From Cryomorphaceae bacterium BACL29 MAG-121220-bin8 (GTDB lineage Bacteria; Bacteroidota; Bacteroidia; Flavobacteriales; Flavobacteriaceae): 50,099 nt of DNA. Positions 25,418 to 41,259 of this stretch are shown in pieces. Below the pieces are notes generated by a model. That model was not told the DNA's origin, ran no database searches, and saw only the letters and a program-made list of their open reading frames with translations. Both the position numbers and the translations under genes were made by a program. The stretch covers positions 1-50,099 of the forward strand of contig CAJJCV010000007.1 of assembly GCA_905182765.1 (NCBI GenBank). The letters are read 5' to 3'. How positions within the stretch are numbered: position 1 is the stretch's first letter; every line of letters starts with the position of its first letter.

Positions 25418-26299
25418 ATGTATTTATCAAATTTTTTTGACTATTTATCCAAAGAGAAAAACTTCTCTTCCAACACTGTCGTTGCTTACAAAAAAGACCT
25501 TGAAACATTCAAATTATTTTGTTTAGATCAATACGAAATAAATAATATTTCAGTTATGACCTATCCAATTATAAGAGATTGGATTATAAATCTATCTGAA
25601 AAAGAACTTTCTCCATTAACAATTAATCGTAAAATATCATCATTGAGTAAATACTATGATTTTTTGCTTAAAACTCAAGTGAATAAAGTTTCGCCTTTAA
25701 AAAACCACAAGAGATTAAAAGTTCAAAAAAAGTTAATAATTCCATTTTCTGAAGATGAAGTTTTTAAAGTTGTGGATGTGTTTAGTAAGGACTTTGAGGG
25801 AAAAAGAAATTTACTGATTGTCGATACTCTTTATTCAACAGGAATTAGAAGAGACGAATTAATAAATATTAAACTAAACGATGTCTTTTTAAGCGAGAAT
25901 TTAATAAAAGTTTTAGGAAAGAGAAATAAAGAGCGATTAGTTCCAGTACTCACTAGTTTAAATAAAAGAATAAAAGATTATTTAGGTCTTAGAAATGAAA
26001 TTCGTTCCAATAGTCCAAGTCTTTTTATAACAAATAAAGGAAAGACTATTGGACCTTCTCTAGTATACAGGGTAGTTAAAAAATATTTTTCAAAAGTTTC
26101 TACAAAAGTAAAAACTAGTCCACATGTTTTGAGACATTCCTTTGCGACTCATATGTTAAATAATGGAGCAGATATAAATAGTATTAAAGAAATAATGGGG
26201 CATTCTAGCCTTGCTTCAACCCAAATTTATACCAAAATTAAGCTTCCAAAAATTATTAATGACTATAAGAAAAATCATCCTAGAGAAAGAAAAAAGTAA
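25418..26299 (+). CDS. xerC: Tyrosine recombinase XerC/XerD
   Basis: A 293-residue site-specific recombinase that resolves chromosome dimers at dif. The N-terminal SAM-like core-binding domain (about 1-85) precedes the catalytic domain with Arg144 (TGIRRDEL), Lys168 (LGKRNKER), His236 and Arg239 (HVLRHSFATHML), His262 (GHSSLASTQ) and nucleophile Tyr271. Length and full set of catalytic residues argue for the housekeeping protein rather than a phage integrase. Whether it is XerC or XerD cannot be told by eye. It lies 50 bp after rpsU. Confidence 0.9.
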   Translation: MYLSNFFDYLSKEKNFSSNTVVAYKKDLETFKLFCLDQYEINNISVMTYPIIRDWIINLSEKELSPLTINRKISSLSKYYDFLLKTQVNKVSPLKNHKRLKVQKKLIIPFSEDEVFKVVDVFSKDFEGKRNLLIVDTLYSTGIRRDELINIKLNDVFLSENLIKVLGKRNKERLVPVLTSLNKRIKDYLGLRNEIRSNSPSLFITNKGKTIGPSLVYRVVKKYFSKVSTKVKTSPHVLRHSFATHMLNNGADINSIKEIMGHSSLASTQIYTKIKLPKIINDYKKNHPRERKK

Positions 26300-26385: not shown

Positions 26386-26459
26386 GCCGATGTAGCTCAG
26401 CTGGCTAGAGCAGCTGATTTGTAATCAGCAGGTCGTGGGTTCGAGTCCCTCCATCGGCT
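26386..26459 (+). tRNA. tRNA-Thr (anticodon TGT)
   Basis: 74 nt. Acceptor stem GCCGATG pairs with CATCGGC; D-arm TAGCTCAGCTGG; anticodon stem GCTGA/TCAGC with loop TTTGTAA, anticodon TGT; T-arm GGGTTCGAGTCCC. Discriminator is T. No CCA is encoded. First of four tRNAs probably cut from one transcript. Confidence 0.97.
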
Positions 26460-26478
26460 CTTAGTTCTTTAAAATAAT

Positions 26479-26560
26479 GGGGAGATACTCAAGCGGCCAA
26501 CGAGGGCAGACTGTAAATCTGCTGTTTTTAACTTCGCAGGTTCGAATCCTGCTCTCCCCA
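26479..26560 (+). tRNA. tRNA-Tyr (anticodon GTA)
   Basis: 82 nt, class II with a long variable arm. Acceptor GGGGAGA pairs with TCTCCCC; anticodon stem GCAGA/TCTGC with loop CTGTAAA, anticodon GTA; T-loop GGTTCGAATCC. Discriminator A. CCA not encoded. Confidence 0.97.
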
Positions 26561-26573
26561 CTAAAGTATTTAA

Positions 26574-26646
26574 GCGAGAGTAGCTCAGTTGGTAGAGCGT
26601 CAGCCTTCCAAGCTGAATGTCGCCGGTTCGAACCCGGTCTCTCGCT
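26574..26646 (+). tRNA. tRNA-Gly (anticodon TCC)
   Basis: 73 nt. Acceptor GCGAGAG pairs with CTCTCGC; anticodon stem TCAGC/GCTGA with loop CTTCCAA, anticodon TCC; T-arm CCGGTTCGAACCCGG. CCA not encoded. Confidence 0.97.
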
Positions 26647-26657
26647 CAAATTTTTCT

Positions 26658-26729
26658 GCCGATGTAGCTCAGGGGTAGAGCGTTTCCTTGGTAAGGAAGA
26701 GGTCTTGAGTTCAAATCTCAACATTGGCT
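26658..26729 (+). tRNA. tRNA-Thr (anticodon GGT)
   Basis: 72 nt. Acceptor GCCGATG pairs with CATTGGC (one G-T pair); anticodon loop TTGGTAA with anticodon GGT; T-arm GAGTTCAAATCTC. CCA not encoded. It shares its 5' acceptor sequence with the first tRNA of the cluster. The next 231 bp up to the M16 gene are AT-rich and hold nothing else recognisable. Confidence 0.95.
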
Positions 26730-26960
26730 CTCAGTTAAACTAAGTTTTAACAACACTCCTAATCAATTTTACTTAACTTTTATAAAACTTTTTAGTATTG
26801 GGATTGTGTTTAGCACTTTTTTAATTCTTCTAAATAGCTTCCTTTTAGCTTATCTTGATTTCTAGTTATTTTATCATGTGTTATCGTATGTAAAACATAA
26901 CTTCCAATTATTTTAATTATTATATATTTAAACTATTAATTAAATCATCAAAATTTTATC

Positions 26961-29684
26961 ATGAAATTATTTTTTAAACCAACACTATTAGTCCTTTTAA
27001 TTTTAGGAGCAACTCAATTAAATTCAGCTCAAATCAAAAAAACAGCCTCTGTAGAGGGTATAACGGAATATGCATTAGATAATGGTATGAAAGTACTTTT
27101 GTTTCCTGATAATTCTTCACAGACTATCACTGTAAATGTTACTTATTTAGTTGGCTCTCGTCATGAAGGGTATGGTGAAAAAGGAATGGCTCACTTGCTG
27201 GAGCATCTTGTTTTTAAAGGAACACCGTCGCATGAAGATATTCCTAATGAATTGACAGAGCGTGGTGCACGTGCTAACGGGACTACTTGGTATGATCGTA
27301 CTAATTATTACGAAACATTTAATGCAACTGATGATAATTTGGAATGGGCGTTAGACTTGGAGTCTGATCGTATGATGAACTCTTATATATCGAAGGAAGA
27401 TCTCGATTCAGAATTTAGCGTGGTACGTAACGAGTTTGAAAGCGGAGAAAATTCACCATCGAGAACACTTTCTCAAAAAGTAATTCGTGCGGCTTATATG
27501 TGGCATAATTATGGGAATTCAACTATTGGAAATCGTTCTGATATCGAGCGTGTGCCAATTGCAAATTTGAAAGCATTTTACAAGAAATATTACCGACCTG
27601 ATAATGCGGTATTAATGATCACAGGTAAATTTGATAACAAACGAACCTTGGAATTGGTTGACAAATATTTTGGTCCTCTTAATAACCCGTCTACTATACT
27701 CAATGAAGTGCCAACTGTAGAGCCGGCTCAAGATGGTGAAAAACGTGTTGAACTAAATAGAGTAGGTGACTTACAGCTGTTGATGGCGTTATACCATTCT
27801 CCTGCAGGATCTGATGCTGATTATTCAGCTTTAACATTGGTTCAAAACGTTTTAAACGATGCGCCCTCTGGAAGACTTTATAAGGCTTTGGTGGAAACTC
27901 AAATGGCTTCTAATGTATATGCATCAAATCCTTTTACAAAAGATCCAGGGTTTATTAATTTTAACGTGAGTGTTCCGTCTGAAAAATCACTTGCTGATGC
28001 CGAAAAAACTTTATTAAGTGTGTTAGATGGTTTAAAAGATAACCCAATAACTTCCGAAGAATTGAAGCGAGCTCGAGCAAATGTAATGAAGCAATTAGAT
28101 CAGCTTAGTAGAAACTCTGGATATATGGCAACTTATATGAGTGAATTTATTGGAGCAGGGGATTGGCGTTTGGCATTCATTCACCGTGATCGCGTTGAAA
28201 GTACAACCGTAGAGGAAGTGAATGCAGCAGTTCAGAAATATTTTATTCCTACTAATCGTACCATTGGAAACTTTATTCCAACCGATAAGCCTGAACGTGT
28301 TGAGATTTTGCACCCAGAAGGGGTGGCTGAAATGGTGGCTAGCTATAAAGGCAAAGTGGCTATGGACGTTGGTGAAGATTTCGACGTTGACTATGATAAT
28401 ATTCAAAATCGATTGGATAGCGGAATTTTACCAAAATCTGGTATTGAATATGGATTTATAAATAAAGCGAATCGTGGTGAAACAGTTACCCTCTCTTTTG
28501 CTATTAGATCAGGAAATGTTGATGACTATATGAATAAAGGTGTGACGGCAGGATTTGTAGCAAGCTTACTTAATAAAGGAACACAATCACGATCACGTCA
28601 AGACATTGAAGATGCGTTGAGTGCTATTAGTTCGTCAGTTGGTTTTAGCGGGGGGAATGGTCTGGTTTATGCCAACATTTCTTCAACTAAAGAAAACTTG
28701 CCTTCGGCTCTTGAAATTATGACAGACATGCTCAAAAATCCAAAATTCGAAATTAGTGAATTGGATAAAATTAAAACGCAACGTTTGGCTGGCTTGGAAA
28801 GCAGTGCCTCTGATCCTCAGTTTTTAGCGGTTCAACGTATGCGTCAAATCAATCAGGTTCACTCAAAAGGTCACCCTAATTACTTTCCTAATATTGATGA
28901 ACAAATTGCAATGATTAAAGACGTGAGTATAGAACGTATCCAATCTTTTTACGATAATTATTATGGTATTTCGGATAACGCTTCGTTAGTGGTTATTGGA
29001 AGTATGGATGTTGATATGGTTAAAACTTATTTTGAGGATAATTTTTATGATTTTAAATCTGACAAACCATTTTCAGAAATAAAAAACCCACATAAACAAA
29101 ATGTTGCGGCCAATGAAAACATTATTACTCCTGACAAGAAGAATGCTTTTACAATAGGAATGTTATCTGCAAAAACAACAGAAGTTGACAAGGATAATGC
29201 GGCACTTCAAATAGCTGGGACTATTTTTGGCGGTGGATTTTTGAATTCAAGAGTTGCTACGCGTTTAAGACAGCAAGATGGTATAAGTTATGGTGCTGGT
29301 GCTCAAGTGAGCATTGACAGTGATCCAGATGATAAAAATTCAAACTTGATTATCTATGCGATTTATGCGCCTATGAATGCTGATAAAGTTCAAATTGGCT
29401 TCAAAGAAGAGTTAGAACGTTTTATTGTAGATGGTATCACTCAAGAAGAATTGGACAGTGCCTTAAACGGCTGGATTCAAGGACAAACAGTATCCAGAGC
29501 GAAAGACAATGAATTATCGTCATTAATAAATAACAACCTTTATTTTGATCGCGATATGTCTTTTCAAGCTTCGCTCGAATCTCAGGTCAGTGCGTTAACC
29601 GTCGAAAAAGTAAACGCTGTTATCAAGAAATATTTCAAATCACTTGATCAATGGACCGTGGTAAACGGAGGTGATTTTCAATAG
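26961..29684 (+). CDS. M16 family zinc metallopeptidase, exported, two tandem domains
   Basis: A 907-residue insulinase/processing-peptidase-like protein. A signal peptide (about 1-23, QLNSAQ) precedes the active N-terminal half with the inverted zinc motif HLLEH at 78-82 and the distal ligand Glu158, 76 residues on, as in M16. The C-terminal half (from about 490) is a second M16 fold without the HxxEH motif, expected to form the other half of the clamp. Likely periplasmic or surface peptide degradation. Codon use is unlike its neighbours: by hand count 30 of 38 Arg codons are CGN, where nearby genes use AGA. No exact TAnnTTTG was found upstream, only a near match at 26793. Confidence 0.93.
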
Positions 29685-29715
29685 AAAACGAAAGCTGCAA
29701 TTAATTGTATTAATA

Positions 29716-29937
29716 ATGAGTGAAAAACAACCAAATAACCCTTTGCACGGAATAAAATTAGCAACTATTTTGGAAGAGTTATTTTTAGAATATGGATGGG
29801 AAGAATTAGGAGAAACTTTAAATATCAATGCTTTTAAAAATAATCCAACTTATAAATCGAGTTTAAGATTTTTAAGAACCACAGCCTGGGCAAGAGAAAA
29901 AGTTGAAAAATTTTATCTAAAAAATATGATTGATTAA
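29716..29937 (+). CDS. VF530 family DNA-binding protein (DUF2132)
   Basis: A 73-residue protein with the VF530/DUF2132 pattern: [26 protein letters not shown], then [28 protein letters not shown]. The family is named from the Vibrio fischeri structure and is thought to bind DNA through a double helix-turn-helix-like fold; its cellular role is unknown. A frame extends upstream to 29671, overlapping the M16 stop, but the ATG at 29716 gives the family N-terminus ([12 protein letters not shown]). AGA-type codons return here. Confidence 0.88.
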
Positions 29938-29995
29938 ATCTCTAATTTCATTCACGCTTGTTCAAGAATTTTAAATTTAATATGAAAAAATTATT

Positions 29996-30127
29996 ATGAT
30001 AGATTGGCATAAAAAACAAGTAGAAAAAACTTTAGAAAGCTGGGGGTTATCTAATTACCAGGCTTACTGGATTTCTTTCTTAAAAGGTTTAGTAATTGGC
30101 GGAGTTATTGTACTCTATTTTATTTAA
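29996..30127 (+). CDS. 43-residue predicted membrane microprotein
   Basis: ORF starting MIDWHKKQVEKTLESW and ending GLVIGGVIVLYFI. The first half is a charged, amphipathic helix-like segment; residues about 26-43 form one hydrophobic helix ending at the C-terminus. Its ATG overlaps the stop of a 5-codon ORF (29982-29999, MKKLL) in an ATGA arrangement. Not recognised as any named family. Support comes from its sensible tail-anchored design, position after the VF530 gene and before two terminator-like hairpins, and AGA/TTA-type codons. It could still be a chance ORF. Confidence 0.55.
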   Translation: MIDWHKKQVEKTLESWGLSNYQAYWISFLKGLVIGGVIVLYFI

Positions 30128-30173
30128 TTTATAAAAAAGTTAGTATTCCAATTATTAATTATACATTCGCATC

Positions 30174-30191
30174 GTTGATTTCCCAATCAAC
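30174..30191. repeat. Short perfect hairpin GTTGATT/AATCAAC
   Basis: 7-bp perfect stem with a TCCC loop, in the 112-bp space between the microprotein and rhlE, just before the larger terminator hairpin. No U-run follows directly. It may be a 3'-end stabiliser. Confidence 0.35.
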
Positions 30192-30198
30192 ATGTATT

Positions 30199-30238
30199 AA
30201 AAGTTCAAGAGTTTTATGGTCATTATTCTTGAGCTTTT
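30199..30238. terminator. Bidirectional terminator between the microprotein gene and rhlE
   Basis: AAAAGTTCAAGA (30199-30210) pairs with TCTTGAGCTTTT (30227-30238), 12 bp with one G-U pair and a 16-nt loop. Flanking A and T runs make it usable from both directions; it ends 1 bp before the rhlE stop codon. Confidence 0.7.
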
Positions 30239-30239
30239 T

Positions 30240-31475
30240 CTATTTCCTATAGTTGTTTCTTTTTTTATTTTGATTCGATCTTCCTTTGTTTCCTCTAAAG
30301 TTATTTCTGTTTTGTTGTTTAGGAGGTTCTGGAACCGCATTTGGATCAGGTTCATATCCATGTTTAATTTTTGAAGGTATTTTAAGGTTTACTAGTTTTT
30401 CAATATCTTTTAAAAATTGTTTTTCATCAATGCATACTAATGATATTGCCTCTCCTTTTGCTCCAGCCCGTCCTGTTCTTCCAATTCTATGTACATAGTC
30501 TTCAGGAATATTAGGCAGTTCGAAATTTACTACGTGTGGCAATAAAGGAATATCTAATCCTCTAGCTGCAATATCAGTTGCTACTAGAATTTCAACTGAA
30601 CCATCTTTAAATCCAGCTAATGCTTTTGTCCTTGCGCTTTGGCTTTTGTTTCCGTGAATTGCAGCTGCAGAAATATTTGCATTAATCATTTTTTTACAAA
30701 GATTATTCGCACCGTGTTTTGTTCTTGTAAAAACAAGAACTTGTCTCCAGTTTCCCTCTTTGATTAATTGAATTATAAGATTTGATTTTTTATTCTTATC
30801 TACTTTGTAAACATATTGAACAATAGCTTCAACTGTTGTGTTTTGAGGAGAAGTTTCTACTAGTGCAGGATCATTTAAAATTCCTTTTGCCAATCTTTTA
30901 ATTTCTTTAGAAAAAGTTGCAGAAAAAAGCAGGTTCTGTCTTTTGCTTGGCAATAAGTTCATTATTTTATTAATGTCTCTTTGAAAGCCCATATCTAACA
31001 TTCTGTCAGCTTCGTCTAAAACTAAAATTTCTACATTTCGCAGGGATAATAATCGTTGATTTTCAAGATCTAATAATCGACCTGGAGTAGCAATTAATAT
31101 ATCAATTCCATTTCTGATTTTAGAAACTTGAGGTTTTTGGTTTACTCCACCAAAAACAACAGAAGCTCTTAATTCGATGTATTTACTGTATTCAACTACA
31201 TTATCATAAATTTGTGCTGCAAGTTCTCTGGTAGGAGTCAATATTAATGCCCTAATCTTTCTATGATTCGAATTTGGTTGTTTCGAAAGAATTTGTAGTA
31301 ATGGGAGTGTGAAGCCAGCTGTTTTTCCAGTTCCTGTTTGAGCAGAAGCTAAAACATCTTTTCTTTTAAGAATTAATGGAATAGCTTTCTCTTGAATTGG
31401 GGAAGGGTCAGTATATCCTTTCTCGTTGACGGCTTTTAAAAGTGAAGGCATTAAGCCAAGTTCGTTAAATTTCAT
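30240..31475 (-). CDS. rhlE: DEAD-box RNA helicase, RhlE-like
   Basis: A 411-residue ATP-dependent RNA helicase. Motifs in order: Q motif (FNELGL...[13 protein letters not shown]), [10 protein letters not shown] (I), PTRELAAQI (Ia), TPGRL (Ib), [12 protein letters not shown] (II), FSATF (III), [13 protein letters not shown] (V) and [12 protein letters not shown] (VI). The last ~35 residues are basic and rich in Asn, Arg and Lys, a likely RNA-binding tail. Roles may include ribosome assembly or cold adaptation. A TTG two codons upstream is possible; ATG at 31475 is preferred. A TATGTTTG -7 candidate lies at 31564-31557 on the minus strand. Confidence 0.94.
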
Positions 31476-31556
31476 AGGCAATAAAGCATGTATTTTGCTT
31501 TTAATTTTGTTATTATCCTCAAAAATAAATTAAGATTTTTAGATATATATATTTTG

Positions 31557-31564
31557 CAAACATA
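31557..31564 (-). promoter_or_regulatory. Putative -7 element for rhlE
   Basis: TATGTTTG on the minus strand matches TAnnTTTG exactly and would give a long leader of about 75 nt, which is usual for cold-inducible helicase mRNAs but unproven here. No -33 was identified. Confidence 0.3.
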
Positions 31565-31624
31565 AAGTTTTCTGGTATAAATTTTGCTACATTAACCTTG
31601 AATTAAATTTATTAAATTTATAAA

Positions 31625-32956
31625 ATGAAAAATTACATATTAATTTTATGTTTAGTATTAGTTAGCTCTTGCCAGTATGAAGATTATGACGATAGTAAGG
31701 TTATTGATTCTCCTTTAGCAACTTGTATTGATGGTTTTGCTAAAATTCCAGGTACTGACTATGAATATTCTTGTCTTAATTATGATTTAATGGGACGTAT
31801 AACTCTTGAGGAAATGGATGCAGAGGCTGGTAATGATTGCTGGGGTTGGATCGATTCAACAACAGGAAGAGAATATGCAATCATGGGTGTAAATAATGGT
31901 ACGTCTTTTATAGATATTACTGATTCAACATCTCCAATATATCTTGGCAAACTTCCAACCGCTACAGTCGATAGTTCATGGAGAGACATGAAGGTTTACA
32001 ATGATCATGTTTACATTGTTAGTGAGGCTAGTGGTCATGGTCTTCAGGTCTTTAATTTAGCGAAGTTAAGAGGATTAGAATCGAAGCAAGTGTTCTCGGC
32101 TGATTTTATTGATAATTCATTTGGAAATGCTCATAATATTGCAATTAATGAAGATAGTGGCTATGCTTACGTACTTGGATCTTGTGAGGATGATAGTTGT
32201 AAAAATGATAGATCAGGAAGTCGAGGTTTATATGTTTTTGATTTAACAAATCCATCAGAACCAAAACTAAGTTTAGAAGATTCAAATTTTAGTTATAGTC
32301 ATGATGCTCAAATAGTAATATACAAAGGCCCTGACCAAGATCATTTTGGTAAAGAAATATTCATTGGAAGCAATGAAGATAGATTAGATGTTATTGATGT
32401 TACAGATAAAACAGAACCAAAACTTATAAGTACTTTTTTGTATGATCACCAATATACTCATCAAGCCTGGCTTACGGATGATCATAAATATGCTTTGCTT
32501 GGTGATGAGCTTGATGAATTAGATTCAAACTATGAATTAAAAGCTGATGCTAAAACTCGAACTGTAATTATAGATTTAAGTGATTTAGACAAACCTGAAT
32601 TGCATCATAATTATGAGGCAGTAACTAAGGCAATTGATCATAATGGATATGTTAAAGGAACTGAATTTTTTCTTGCAAGTTATACTGCAGGTCTTAGAGT
32701 TTTAGATATTTTAAATATTGATCAAAAAAGTATTTCTGAAACTGGTTTTTTCAATACTTTTATTGATCAAAATGGTTCTGGATTACCAAATTCAACAACT
32801 GTCAAAAGTCAAGATCCAGATGGAGACCATAGTGGAAAAAAAGGAAACAGTTCGGCTTTCAATGGTGCTTGGAGTGTATATCCTTTTTTTAAAAGCGAGA
32901 ACATAATTATTAGCGATATCAACTCAGGATTATATATAGTAAAAAAACAGAATTAA
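31625..32956 (+). CDS. LVIVD-repeat lipoprotein (choice-of-anchor B type)
   Basis: A 443-residue exported protein. The signal peptide ends in the lipobox VSSC with Cys16 as the lipid anchor, followed by acidic residues (QYEDYDD). The body has repeated beta-propeller-like LVIVD units: YAIMGVNNGTSFIDITDSTSPIYLGKLP, HVYIVSEASGHGLQVFNL, EIFIGSNEDRLDVIDVTDKTEPKLIS and YALLGDELDEL. The arrangement, including SHDAQIVIYKGPD, matches the 'choice-of-anchor B' family of marine bacteria. Function unknown; probably surface or outer-membrane bound. Codon use is native-like, in contrast with the M16 gene. Confidence 0.85.
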   Translation: MKNYILILCLVLVSSCQYEDYDDSKVIDSPLATCIDGFAKIPGTDYEYSCLNYDLMGRITLEEMDAEAGNDCWGWIDSTTGREYAIMGVNNGTSFIDITDSTSPIYLGKLPTATVDSSWRDMKVYNDHVYIVSEASGHGLQVFNLAKLRGLESKQVFSADFIDNSFGNAHNIAINEDSGYAYVLGSCEDDSCKNDRSGSRGLYVFDLTNPSEPKLSLEDSNFSYSHDAQIVIYKGPDQDHFGKEIFIGSNEDRLDVIDVTDKTEPKLISTFLYDHQYTHQAWLTDDHKYALLGDELDELDSNYELKADAKTRTVIIDLSDLDKPELHHNYEAVTKAIDHNGYVKGTEFFLASYTAGLRVLDILNIDQKSISETGFFNTFIDQNGSGLPNSTTVKSQDPDGDHSGKKGNSSAFNGAWSVYPFFKSENIIISDINSGLYIVKKQN

Positions 32957-32999
32957 TTTAATTTTTGACAAATTTTCACTTTCTCTGTTTTAATGCTCC

Positions 33000-33018
33000 T
33001 TTTTTCTTTACGAAAAAA
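33000..33018 (+). terminator. Possible terminator after the LVIVD gene
   Basis: TTTTTTC, 5-nt loop, GAAAAAA: a 7-bp hairpin 44 bp after the stop codon and before the tuf promoter. The orientation of U- and A-runs fits the minus strand better, so its activity is uncertain. Confidence 0.3.
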
Positions 33019-37452: not shown

Positions 37453-40400
37453 ATGTATAGTACTATTAATAGATTAAATTTTGCATCAGCTACAGATATT
37501 CCTGATTATCCTGATTTTCTTGAAATTCAAATAAAATCTTTTGGTGATTTTTTTCAACTTGAGACAAAATCTGATGAAAGAACCGATGAAGGTCTTTTTA
37601 ATACTTTTAAAGAAAACTTTCCTATTTCAGATTCTAGAAATCAATTTGTATTAGAGTTTTTAGATTATTTTGTTGATCCTCCCAGATATTCAATGCAAGA
37701 GTGTATTGAAAGAGGATTAACTCATTGTGTTCCTTTAAAAGCAAGGTTGAAACTCTATTGTACTGATGAAGAACATGAAGATTTCGAAACTATAGTACAG
37801 GATGTATATTTAGGTGTAATACCGTACATGACCCCTAGTGGTACTTTTATAATAAATGGTGCCGAGAGAGTAGTTGTATCTCAATTACATAGGTCTCCCG
37901 GTGTCTTTTTCGGTCAGTCTTTTCATGCTAATGGAACTAAGTTATACTCTGCAAGAGTTATTCCGTTCAAAGGATCGTGGATTGAATTTGCTACAGACAT
38001 TAATAGTGTGATGTACGCTTATATCGACAGAAAGAAAAAATTACCTGTAACTACTCTTTTAAGAGCAATTGGTTTTGAAAGAGATAAAGACATTTTAGAA
38101 ATTTTTGATTTAGCTGAAGAAATTAAAGTATCTAAATCAGGACTAAAAAAGTGTTTGGGAAGAAAGTTAGCTGCTAGAGTTTTAAACTCATGGTTTGAAG
38201 ATTTTGTTGATGAAGATACTGGAGAAGTTGTTTCTATTGAAAGAAATGAAATTATTTTAGATAGAGAGACAATAATAGATAAAGAAAATATTGAAGAGAT
38301 TTTATCTACAAATACTCAAACAATATTATTACACAAAATTGATGGTCAACTTTCTGACTATGCAATAATTCATAATACTCTTCAAAAAGATCCTACTAAT
38401 TCTGAAAAGGAAGCCGTTGAGCATATCTATAGACAGCTAAGAAATGCTGAGCCGCCTGATGAGGAAACAGCAAGAGGGATAATTGATAAATTATTTTTCT
38501 CTGACCAAAGATATAATTTGGGTGAAGTTGGTAGATATAGAATGAATAAAAAATTAGGTCTTGATATTGATATGGAGATGCTAGTTTTAACAAAAGAGGA
38601 TATCATAACTATTATCAAATACCTTATTGAATTAATTAATTCTAAAGCTGAAATTGATGATATTGATCACCTTTCTAACAGAAGAGTTAGAACAGTTGGT
38701 GAACAGTTATCTTCTCAATTTGGTGTTGGTCTTTCAAGAATGGCAAGAACTATTAGAGAAAGAATGAACGTTAGAGATAATGAAGTTTTTACGCCTATTG
38801 ATTTAATTAATGCTAAAACTTTATCATCTGTAATTAACTCGTTTTTTGGAACTAATCAGTTGTCTCAATTCATGGATCAAACTAATCCATTAGCTGAAAT
38901 AACACATAAAAGAAGATTATCTGCATTAGGTCCTGGAGGTCTTTCTAGAGAGAGAGCAGGGTTTGAAGTAAGAGATGTTCATTATACACATTATGGAAGG
39001 TTATGCCCAATTGAAACACCTGAAGGTCCGAATATTGGTTTAATTTCTTCGTTAGGTGTTTTTGCTAAAGTTAACGATCTAGGTTTCATTGAAACTCCTT
39101 ACAGAAAAGTAGAAAATGGAGTAGTAGATTTGAAAAATTATAGATATTTAAGCGCTGAAGAAGAGGAAGGTATGTTAATTGCTCAAGCAAATATTCCAAA
39201 AGATAAGGACGGTAAAATTCTTTCTGAAAAGGTTATCGCTAGACAAGAAGCAGATTATCCTGTTATTGATCCTTCAGAAGTTAATTATACAGATGTTGCA
39301 CCCAACCAAATCGCATCTATTTCAGCTTCACTTATTCCTTTCTTGGAACATGATGATGCTAACAGAGCACTTATGGGATCAAACATGATGAGACAATCTG
39401 TTCCTTTACTAATACCAGAATCTCCTATTGTTGGTACTGGATTAGAAAGACAAGTTGCTTCTGATTCACGAGTATTAATAAATGCTGATTTTGATGGGGA
39501 AGTTACTTATGTAGATTCTCAAAAAATAACTATTAAGTATAGCCTTACTGAAGAACAAAAGATCACAAGCTTTGACTTAGATGAAAAAACATATTCATTA
39601 GTTAAATTTAGAAAGACTAATCAAGGGACTTGTATTAATCTAAAACCTATTGTTGTTAAAGGTGATAAAGTTAAAAAAGGTCAAGTTTTATGTGAAGGTT
39701 ATGCAACTCAAAATGGAGAATTAGCACTTGGTAGAAATTTAAAAGTTGCTTTCATGCCATGGAAGGGATATAATTTTGAAGACGCTATTGTGATTTCAGA
39801 AAAAGTTGTTAGAGATGATGTTTTTACATCATTACATATTGACGAGTATTCTATCGATGTAAGAGATACTAAATTAGGAATGGAAGAACTTACTAATGAT
39901 ATTCCAAATGTAAGTGAAGAAGCTACATCTGATTTAGATGAAAATGGAATGATTAGAGTTGGTGCTGAAGTTAAGCCTGGCGATATTTTGATTGGTAAAA
40001 TTACTCCAAAAGGTGAATCAGATCCAACTCCTGAAGAAAAATTATTAAGAGCTATTTTTGGTGATAAAGCTGGTGATGTAAAAGATGCTTCGTTAAAAGC
40101 ACCTCCATCATTAAATGGTGTTGTTGTAAATAAAAAGTTATTTACAAGACCTGTAAAGGATAAAAAAACAAGATCTGAAGATAAAGATCATTTGATTGAA
40201 TTAGGAAAAGCATATGATATTAAATTTGAAGACCTTAAAAAATCATTAATAGAGAAGCTTTATAATATTTTAAGCGGTAAAACTTGCCAAGGTATATTTA
40301 ATGATTTACAAGAAGAAGTTTTGCCAAAGGGTAAAAAATATTCTTTAAAAATGCTAAATCAGGTTGAAGAATATACTCACCTAGTATCAGGTTCATGGAC

Positions 40401-41259
40401 AGTAGACAAAAAAGTTAATTCTTTAGTATTAACTCTTTTACATAACTACAAAATTAAAGAAAATGATCTTCAAGGAATGCTTAGAAGAGAAAAATTTACT
40501 ATTTCTGTTGGTGACGAACTTCCTCCAGGAATTTTAAAATTAGCAAAAGTATATATAGCTAAAAAGAGAAAACTTAAAGTCGGAGATAAAATGGCTGGAA
40601 GACACGGTAATAAAGGTATCGTTGCCAGAATTGTTAGACAAGAAGATATGCCATTCTTAGAAGACGGAACACCAGTTGATATTGTACTTAATCCACTTGG
40701 TGTACCCTCAAGAATGAATATTGGTCAAATTTATGAAACTGTTTTAGGTTGGGCTGGTCAAAAATTAGGTAGAAAATTTTCTACTCCAATTTTTGATGGT
40801 GCTACTTTAGATCAAATAAATGAACTGACTGAAGAAGCTGGCGTTCCAAAATTTGGACACACTTACTTATATGATGGTGGAACTGGTAAAAGGTTTGATC
40901 AACCAGCAACTGTTGGTGTTATTTATATGCTTAAGCTAGGTCATATGGTGGATGATAAAATGCACTCAAGATCTATTGGACCTTATTCTTTAATTACTCA
41001 ACAACCACTTGGTGGTAAGGCTCAATTTGGAGGTCAAAGGTTTGGAGAAATGGAAGTTTGGGCATTAGAAGCATATGGAGCTTCAAGCACTTTACAAGAA
41101 ATTTTAACAATCAAATCTGATGATGTTCAAGGTAGAGCAAAAGCTTATGAAGCAATTGTAAAAGGAGATACTATGCCTGATCCTGGACTTCCAGAATCAT
41201 TTAACGTATTGATGCATGAACTTAAAGGTCTAGGATTAGATATTAGATTAGAAGAATAA
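37453..41259 (+). CDS. rpoB: DNA-directed RNA polymerase beta subunit
   Basis: A 1268-residue catalytic subunit, highly flavobacterial in sequence. The rifampicin region reads [20 protein letters not shown], the susceptible-type residues, followed by [20 protein letters not shown]. The C-terminal [15 protein letters not shown] and [25 protein letters not shown] segments are intact. Followed by rpoC after 17 nt. Confidence 0.99.

Follow-up and report, generated by a model that had tools for sequence, protein, structure and literature searches.

A two-lobed M16 zinc peptidase gene of a flavobacterial genus, very probably the legacy of one old transfer

Peptidases of family M16 for which structures have been solved (PF00675/PF05193; 4nnz, 3ami, 3amj) have in common two domain pairs and an HxxEH motif in the first half only, and the protein described here shares this arrangement. 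It departs from the solved active and inactive subunits of 3amj in having both halves in one chain. Its gene can also be compared with the model of Lawrence and Ochman, in which a xenologous gene is acquired and its codon usage is reportedly ameliorated: here too, a donor-like composition decays toward that of the host along an inherited lineage. Unlike in that model, the fourfold sites and the Arg boxes of this gene decay at visibly different rates. With regard to the genomic site, Oliveira et al. 2017 (PMC5635113) found no sign of mobile elements in half of the transfer hotspots and proposed that flanking core genes recombine there. The present site resembles those hotspots and has the make-up of a transfer hotspot, since variable accessory genes lie between conserved neighbours and no element integrase was seen; it differs in being known to any depth from ten genomes only.

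The window, i.e. the whole stretch of DNA that was analysed, is an entire contig of 50,099 nucleotides from a draft assembly (1.40 Mb in 54 contigs, 80% complete) of genus g1 in family f1 (Flavobacteriaceae). The features of the gene are as follows.

26961..29684, + strand: gene for an acquired two-lobed M16 zinc peptidase, as read from Pfam, solved-structure matches, codon usage and phylogeny
27192..27206, + strand: HLLEH, codons 78-82, the sole HxxEH motif in the 907-aa protein
27432..27434, + strand: Glu codon (residue 158), 76 residues past HxxEH and invariant in 31 rows; probably the third zinc ligand

The product of 907 aa (gene GC 0.370, GC3 0.269) contained two stretches each of the Pfam families M16 and M16_C, with 104.7 and 199.8 bits against curated cut-offs of 22.3 and 23. 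Among solved structures, the active subunit 3amj_C matched residues 36-444 and the inactive subunit 3amj_B residues 527-905, and H78, E81, H82 and E158 were invariant across 31 aligned M16 rows. From its role in the family we take HxxEH to be the (inverted) zinc-binding motif, and E158 is presumably the distal zinc ligand, given the spacing in M16 enzymes. Because each half has its own subunit match, HxxEH is single and these residues are invariant, the most likely reading of the protein is a zinc peptidase with two fused lobes. By analogy with the family, the N-terminal half is most likely catalytic and the C-terminal half inactive, and the product would most likely be an exported zinc peptidase degrading peptides; a putative N-terminal signal peptide is apparent by eye. 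Four NCBIfam matches were all far under their cut-offs and left the subtype unnamed.

The initial annotation had singled out this gene for its Arg codons, 30 of 38 being CGN and mostly CGT next to genes using AGA, and for a higher frequency of TTG and of GC-ending codons. Recounting gave the same figure (CGT 22, CGA 6, CGC 2, with AGA 8), and CGN was indeed rare among the Arg codons of flanking genes (rpoB 1/64, rpoC 6/76, EF-Tu 2/20, xerC 3/15, RhlE 4/25). TTG accounted for 31% of Leu codons, a share exceeded by one of 42 other tabulated ORFs (101 aa, 33%). The host was sampled through 344 kb of the same genome including the window (269 ORFs, each 150 aa or longer), and CGN made up 280 of 3095 Arg codons in the 268 other ORFs (Fisher p = 5e-24 against the M16 gene). 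By CGN fraction the gene came first among the 162 sampled ORFs that have 8 or more Arg, and by GC3 first among the 231 of at least 200 aa; its codon score was 5.2 SD under the mean of this sample. The next-highest CGN values belonged to TypA/BipA (17/33; L254 1240-3009) and to a GFO/IDH/MocA oxidoreductase (8/17; L251 5832-7028).

High expression is an unlikely cause of the CGN bias, since EF-Tu and RpoB of the host use AGA. An inability of the host to decode CGT was also considered and discarded, tRNA-Arg species with anticodons ACG, TCG and TCT all being present. A TadA-like match of 127 bits was found in the host genome, under the 150-bit cut-off of a model that was reached by none of the 22 g1 genomes and by only 5 of 14 control genomes.

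Orthologues of the M16 gene were found in 4 of 22 g1 genomes (89-100% identity, one copy cut by a contig end), other matches having at most 34% identity. Most g1 genomes are incomplete drafts (51-93% complete), and some of these absences may therefore be gaps. The gene is patchy in g1, two near relatives (G015, G005) having the site without M16. The nearest named copies came mostly from MAGs labelled Flavobacteriaceae, and we infer a marine origin for the window lineage. Relatives with at least 59% identity occurred in 46 of 397 family genomes (one partial), the best outside g1 (79-80%) being in genus g92. This genus carried the gene in all four genomes searched, one copy being cut by a contig end, with a best identity of 87%, apparently in O_MB241. 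Between the window and O_MB241, identity was 87% for M16, 85% for RpoB and 68% for ParA; between the window and seven other named genera it was 61-66% for M16 and 85-86% for RpoB.

In the M16 tree, six rows of g1 type and four g92 rows formed one group with a support of 100; this tree and that of RpoB were quick searches, and the conflict between gene trees was judged against RpoB as the one core gene. The AU test rejected the placement of M16 according to the species tree, i.e. RpoB (p 9.7e-8; 28 of 33 rows, Mangrovimonas, Robiginitalea and three distant outgroups being dropped). Conversely, on RpoB, it rejected a grouping of the carriers with g92 (p 8.6e-29) and of the whole of g1 with g92 (p 0.015); 19 of 20 rows were used, ERR599059 being dropped as its bin is possibly mixed. 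In the full RpoB tree, the ERR599059 row joined g1 with a support of 97.

These results bear on the possibility that the gene was inherited vertically and kept an ancestral codon usage through translation selection, g1 itself being the outlier. Codon counts are in keeping with the latter part of this idea: CGN represented 34-58 of 65-71 RpoB Arg codons in 12 genomes of Flavobacteriaceae type outside g1, including the equally AT-rich Gaetbulibacter, against 1-8 of 64-66 in eight g1 genomes. A vertical origin is nevertheless rejected by the AU test and opposed by the M16 phylogeny, the 87% identity to g92, the different locus, the absence in near relatives and the use of AGA by EF-Tu and RpoB, and we consider it very improbable. 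Selection could still have slowed the loss of CGN after a transfer. As a separate observation, g1 has largely given up CGN for AGA in RpoB (window rpoB, 37453-41259).

The direction of transfer was read from locus and composition. In the M16 tree g1 stood beside O_MB241 with a support of 84, and a g92 clade without g1 passed the AU test (p 0.144); the topology alone is thus compatible with a donor sister to g92 and with a reverse transfer, from g1 carriers to g92. The loci speak differently. Seventeen M16 loci were compared, three of the window type (L105-L107) and 14 others, which count as 12 distinct because L076/L109 and L077/L110 seem to come from the same genomes. At 10 of the 12 distinct non-carrier loci, M16 adjoined parA or was one gene away from it, the exceptions being Zeaxanthinibacter and Arenibacter (parA was identified by sequence search in L108, L109, L110 and L113, and elsewhere by eye from ORF starts). 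After M16 at this locus, g92 has two methylmalonyl-CoA mutase genes. Neither an M16 nor a mutase match was present at the parA locus of the seven g1 genomes examined, carriers G000, G019 and G001 included, and in all seven a small septum-protein-like gene adjoins parA. Composition agrees: ORFs near M16 in the g92 locus L108 had 165 CGN among 229 Arg codons and a GC3 of 0.338, and the M16 gene matches this donor rather than its g1 host. The g92 copy therefore sits at a site common to other genera with a codon usage matching its neighbours, and the g1 copy is patchy, at another locus and compositionally odd, which makes a reverse transfer very improbable, despite the p value of 0.144.

Phylogeny, absence in near relatives, the other locus and donor codon usage hence all concur with the earlier proposal of an origin in a bacteroidete of higher GC. 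The gene is supported as a xenologue, and the case for transfer stands without recourse to composition. Very probably, the ancestor of one g1 sub-branch took up a single M16 gene long ago from a lineage of g92, perhaps from near O_MB241, and passed it on vertically through several species. Before this uptake, g1 would have lost the M16 gene of the parA site or would never have had one. The newcomer probably settled in a spot of gene turnover bordered by the tRNA-Thr array and by RhlE.

The initial annotation had suggested a recent acquisition, which the divergence of the carriers contradicts. Fourfold-site differences in M16 between the window and three other carriers were 0.35-0.42; in the same comparison, host genes gave 0.37-0.50 (AlaSymp, ACAD, XerC, trpE), 0.31-0.41 (RhlE) and 0.38 (RpoB), EF-Tu being lower (0.16-0.18). 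Since M16 diverged as much as most host genes, a single acquisition preceding the split of the carrier species is indicated. An uptake by a single strain in recent times could appeal to the window copy, which has the highest fourfold GC of all carriers (0.259) and the highest CGN share after L106. Against it, besides the host-like divergence of the four carriers compared, G012 and G019 have orthologues at the position found in the window, and downstream genes are shared with G001 and L105 (the same genes) and with L106 (RhlE and the choice-of-anchor gene); we regard such a recent event as highly improbable and discarded it. The bin of L105 bears the label Rhodobacteraceae; that of L106 is of Flavobacteriaceae, but its RpoB shares only 85% identity with that of the window, against 95% for its RhlE. 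Both contigs are probably misbinned. In sum, the codon observation and the foreign origin put forward earlier are correct, the latter being well supported; the recency is wrong, and of the idea of integration at a tRNA only the locality stands. As an example of transfer it is ordinary yet unusually clear, with the donor genus, the other locus, the target site and the relative age of the event all legible.

If the single old uptake is accepted, its compositional trace has faded unevenly. Within g92, the fourfold GC of M16 was 0.299 for O_MB241 and 0.390 and 0.448 for two further members; among the carriers, the window had 0.259 and L106 0.237, with 0.138-0.157 for G012, G019, G001 and L105. Sampled host genes had values of 0.088 (G000), 0.133 (G012), 0.138 (G019) and 0.117 (G001), and the neighbours of the O_MB241 copy 0.332. 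In one carrier branch (G012, G019, G001, L105), the fourfold sites of M16 are thus nearly at host composition. Arg codons behaved otherwise. The three g92 sequences all have Arg at 35 columns, of which 19 were CGN throughout, 5 AGR throughout and 11 mixed; the five full-length carriers kept 16-18 of the 19 donor CGN columns, G001 kept 13 of 16 readable ones, and all five shared donor AGR columns remained AGR in the carriers. Fourfold third positions accordingly drift to the AT-rich host composition faster than Arg codons change. The latter hold the donor signature longest, perhaps because the path from CGT to AGA needs two steps, via CGA. Foreign codons need not mean a recent arrival, as one codon family can outlast the adaptation of other sites.

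A search with M16_C found the acquired gene to be the sole M16 gene in the four g1 carriers; 14 of the 18 non-carriers had another M16, of types differing from the acquired one, and four had none. This contrast gave a Fisher p of 0.0096 with the four carriers counted separately, though they form one clade and so represent one event, not four. Were a further M16 gene present in each carrier, incompleteness alone would hide all four with a probability of 0.007. The near non-carrier G015 (88% complete) was likewise devoid of any M16. The lack of another M16 in the carriers suggests replacement: the acquired peptidase may have taken over from another M16 system, and we tentatively entertain, as a possibility falling somewhat short of an even chance, that the fused form displaced a native system in this sub-branch and that M16 is an exchangeable function mostly held by a single system. 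If so, a reduced genome would renew a housekeeping-type protease by transfer, small-genome flavobacteria would keep up their M16 function in this way, and Arg boxes would serve as a slow clock for old transfers. No literature on transfer of M16 peptidases in Flavobacteriaceae was found.

The surroundings of the gene comprise the following features.

25418..26299, + strand: tyrosine recombinase of XerC kind (best NCBIfam match XerC, 273 bits, under the 335-bit cut-off)
26386..26730, + strand: tRNA array Thr(TGT)-Tyr(GTA)-Gly(TCC)-Thr(GGT), which bounds the variable spot on the left (ARAGORN; present in relatives)
26731..26960, + strand: spacer between tRNA-Thr and the M16 gene (by-eye alignment of carriers and donor genus)
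29716..29937, + strand: gene for a VF530 DNA-binding protein (Pfam PF09905, 5e-31)
29996..30127, + strand: 43-aa ORF, 79-81% identical in G012, G019 and G001, with no Pfam family
30240..31481, - strand: RhlE-type DEAD-box helicase, an accessory gene that in carriers bounds the spot on the right

The last tRNA, Thr(GGT), ends at 26730, leaving a gap of 230 bp, in accordance with the start 231 bp past it reported earlier. The spacer differs in length and sequence among carriers, the bases just before the start codon being partly common, and by-eye alignment revealed no clear similarity to upstream DNA of the donor genus. A loose promoter pattern, counted without a chance control, matched five times upstream of the gene. 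Among the carriers compared, the VF530 gene was seen in the window only: it had no match in G012, G019 and G001 and appeared as a gap in the six-carrier alignment. RhlE copies of at least 80% identity occurred in 10 of 22 g1 genomes. RhlE identity was 88% between G000 and G018 and 82% between G018 and G017, the G018 copy being nearer to that of the window than to that of G017; such distances hint at possible recombination of the flanks at this spot.

Ten genomes show the region past tRNA-Thr(GGT) to some depth. M16 follows in G000, G012 and G019; in G015 and G005 the choice-of-anchor gene comes directly, after about 70 bp. Other ORFs occupy about 6 kb in G018, 4.4 kb in G017 and 3 kb in G014, a 166-aa ORF follows in G021, and in G006 further ORFs fill the 3.3 kb up to the contig end. 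Contigs end 0.75 kb (G004) and 0.35 kb (G007) past this tRNA, and stop within or at the end of the array in G010, G016 and G002. Of the three nearest non-carriers, G015 and G005 thus present an empty site and the contig of G016 breaks there. The contig of G001 starts inside the M16 gene; L105 has a 136-aa ORF upstream of M16, so that the immediate left neighbour varies among carriers, with no tRNA within the 560 bases available, and L106 has none within 205 available bases. Direct adjacency of M16 and tRNA is consequently seen in three carriers only, and these three assemblies with the tRNA join argue against joins by assembly error.

The position beside tRNA genes had suggested an integration site, with neither an integrase nor a duplicated tRNA 3' end noticed. 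A tyrosine recombinase had in fact been overlooked (the XerC-like gene listed above). This gene stands directly before the array in all 14 relatives examined that contain it, and owing to this conserved place it is taken as a core gene and was discarded as the integrase of an element; nothing was seen to connect it with the insertion. As far as 33000 downstream, the 3' end of the tRNA was not exactly repeated, the search covering the terminal 10 bases and any 12-mer of the last 32 over 26731-33000, by which diverged repeats escape. The window contains no mobile gene in the interval from the tRNA to RhlE, no donor-genus flank was recognisable by eye around M16 in the carriers, and no att-like repeat was found. 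The variable gene content beside the array and a 306-aa ORF between tRNA-Gly and tRNA-Thr in G014 would suit entry on an integrative element directed at the tRNA and since erased. This concerns the route only and is compatible with the transfer itself; the missing repeat, mobile gene and donor flank oppose it, although the event is old enough for such traces to have vanished, and we hold it to be unlikely. Entry was perhaps more probably by DNA uptake and recombination, by the flanking-gene route proposed by Oliveira et al., than by an integrative element.

Several minor observations were made at the spot. The 306-aa ORF of G014 (L073 9704-10930) resembles a homocysteine methyltransferase by eye. 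Similar ORFs of 163-166 aa, also recognised by eye, occur in G018 (L069 14762-15262), G021 (L072 8415-8915) and G014 (L073 13479-13970). Finally, tRNA-Thr(GGT) of the window (26658-26730) carries paired changes in the T-stem relative to G012, G019, G015 and G005, with complementarity kept as judged by eye.
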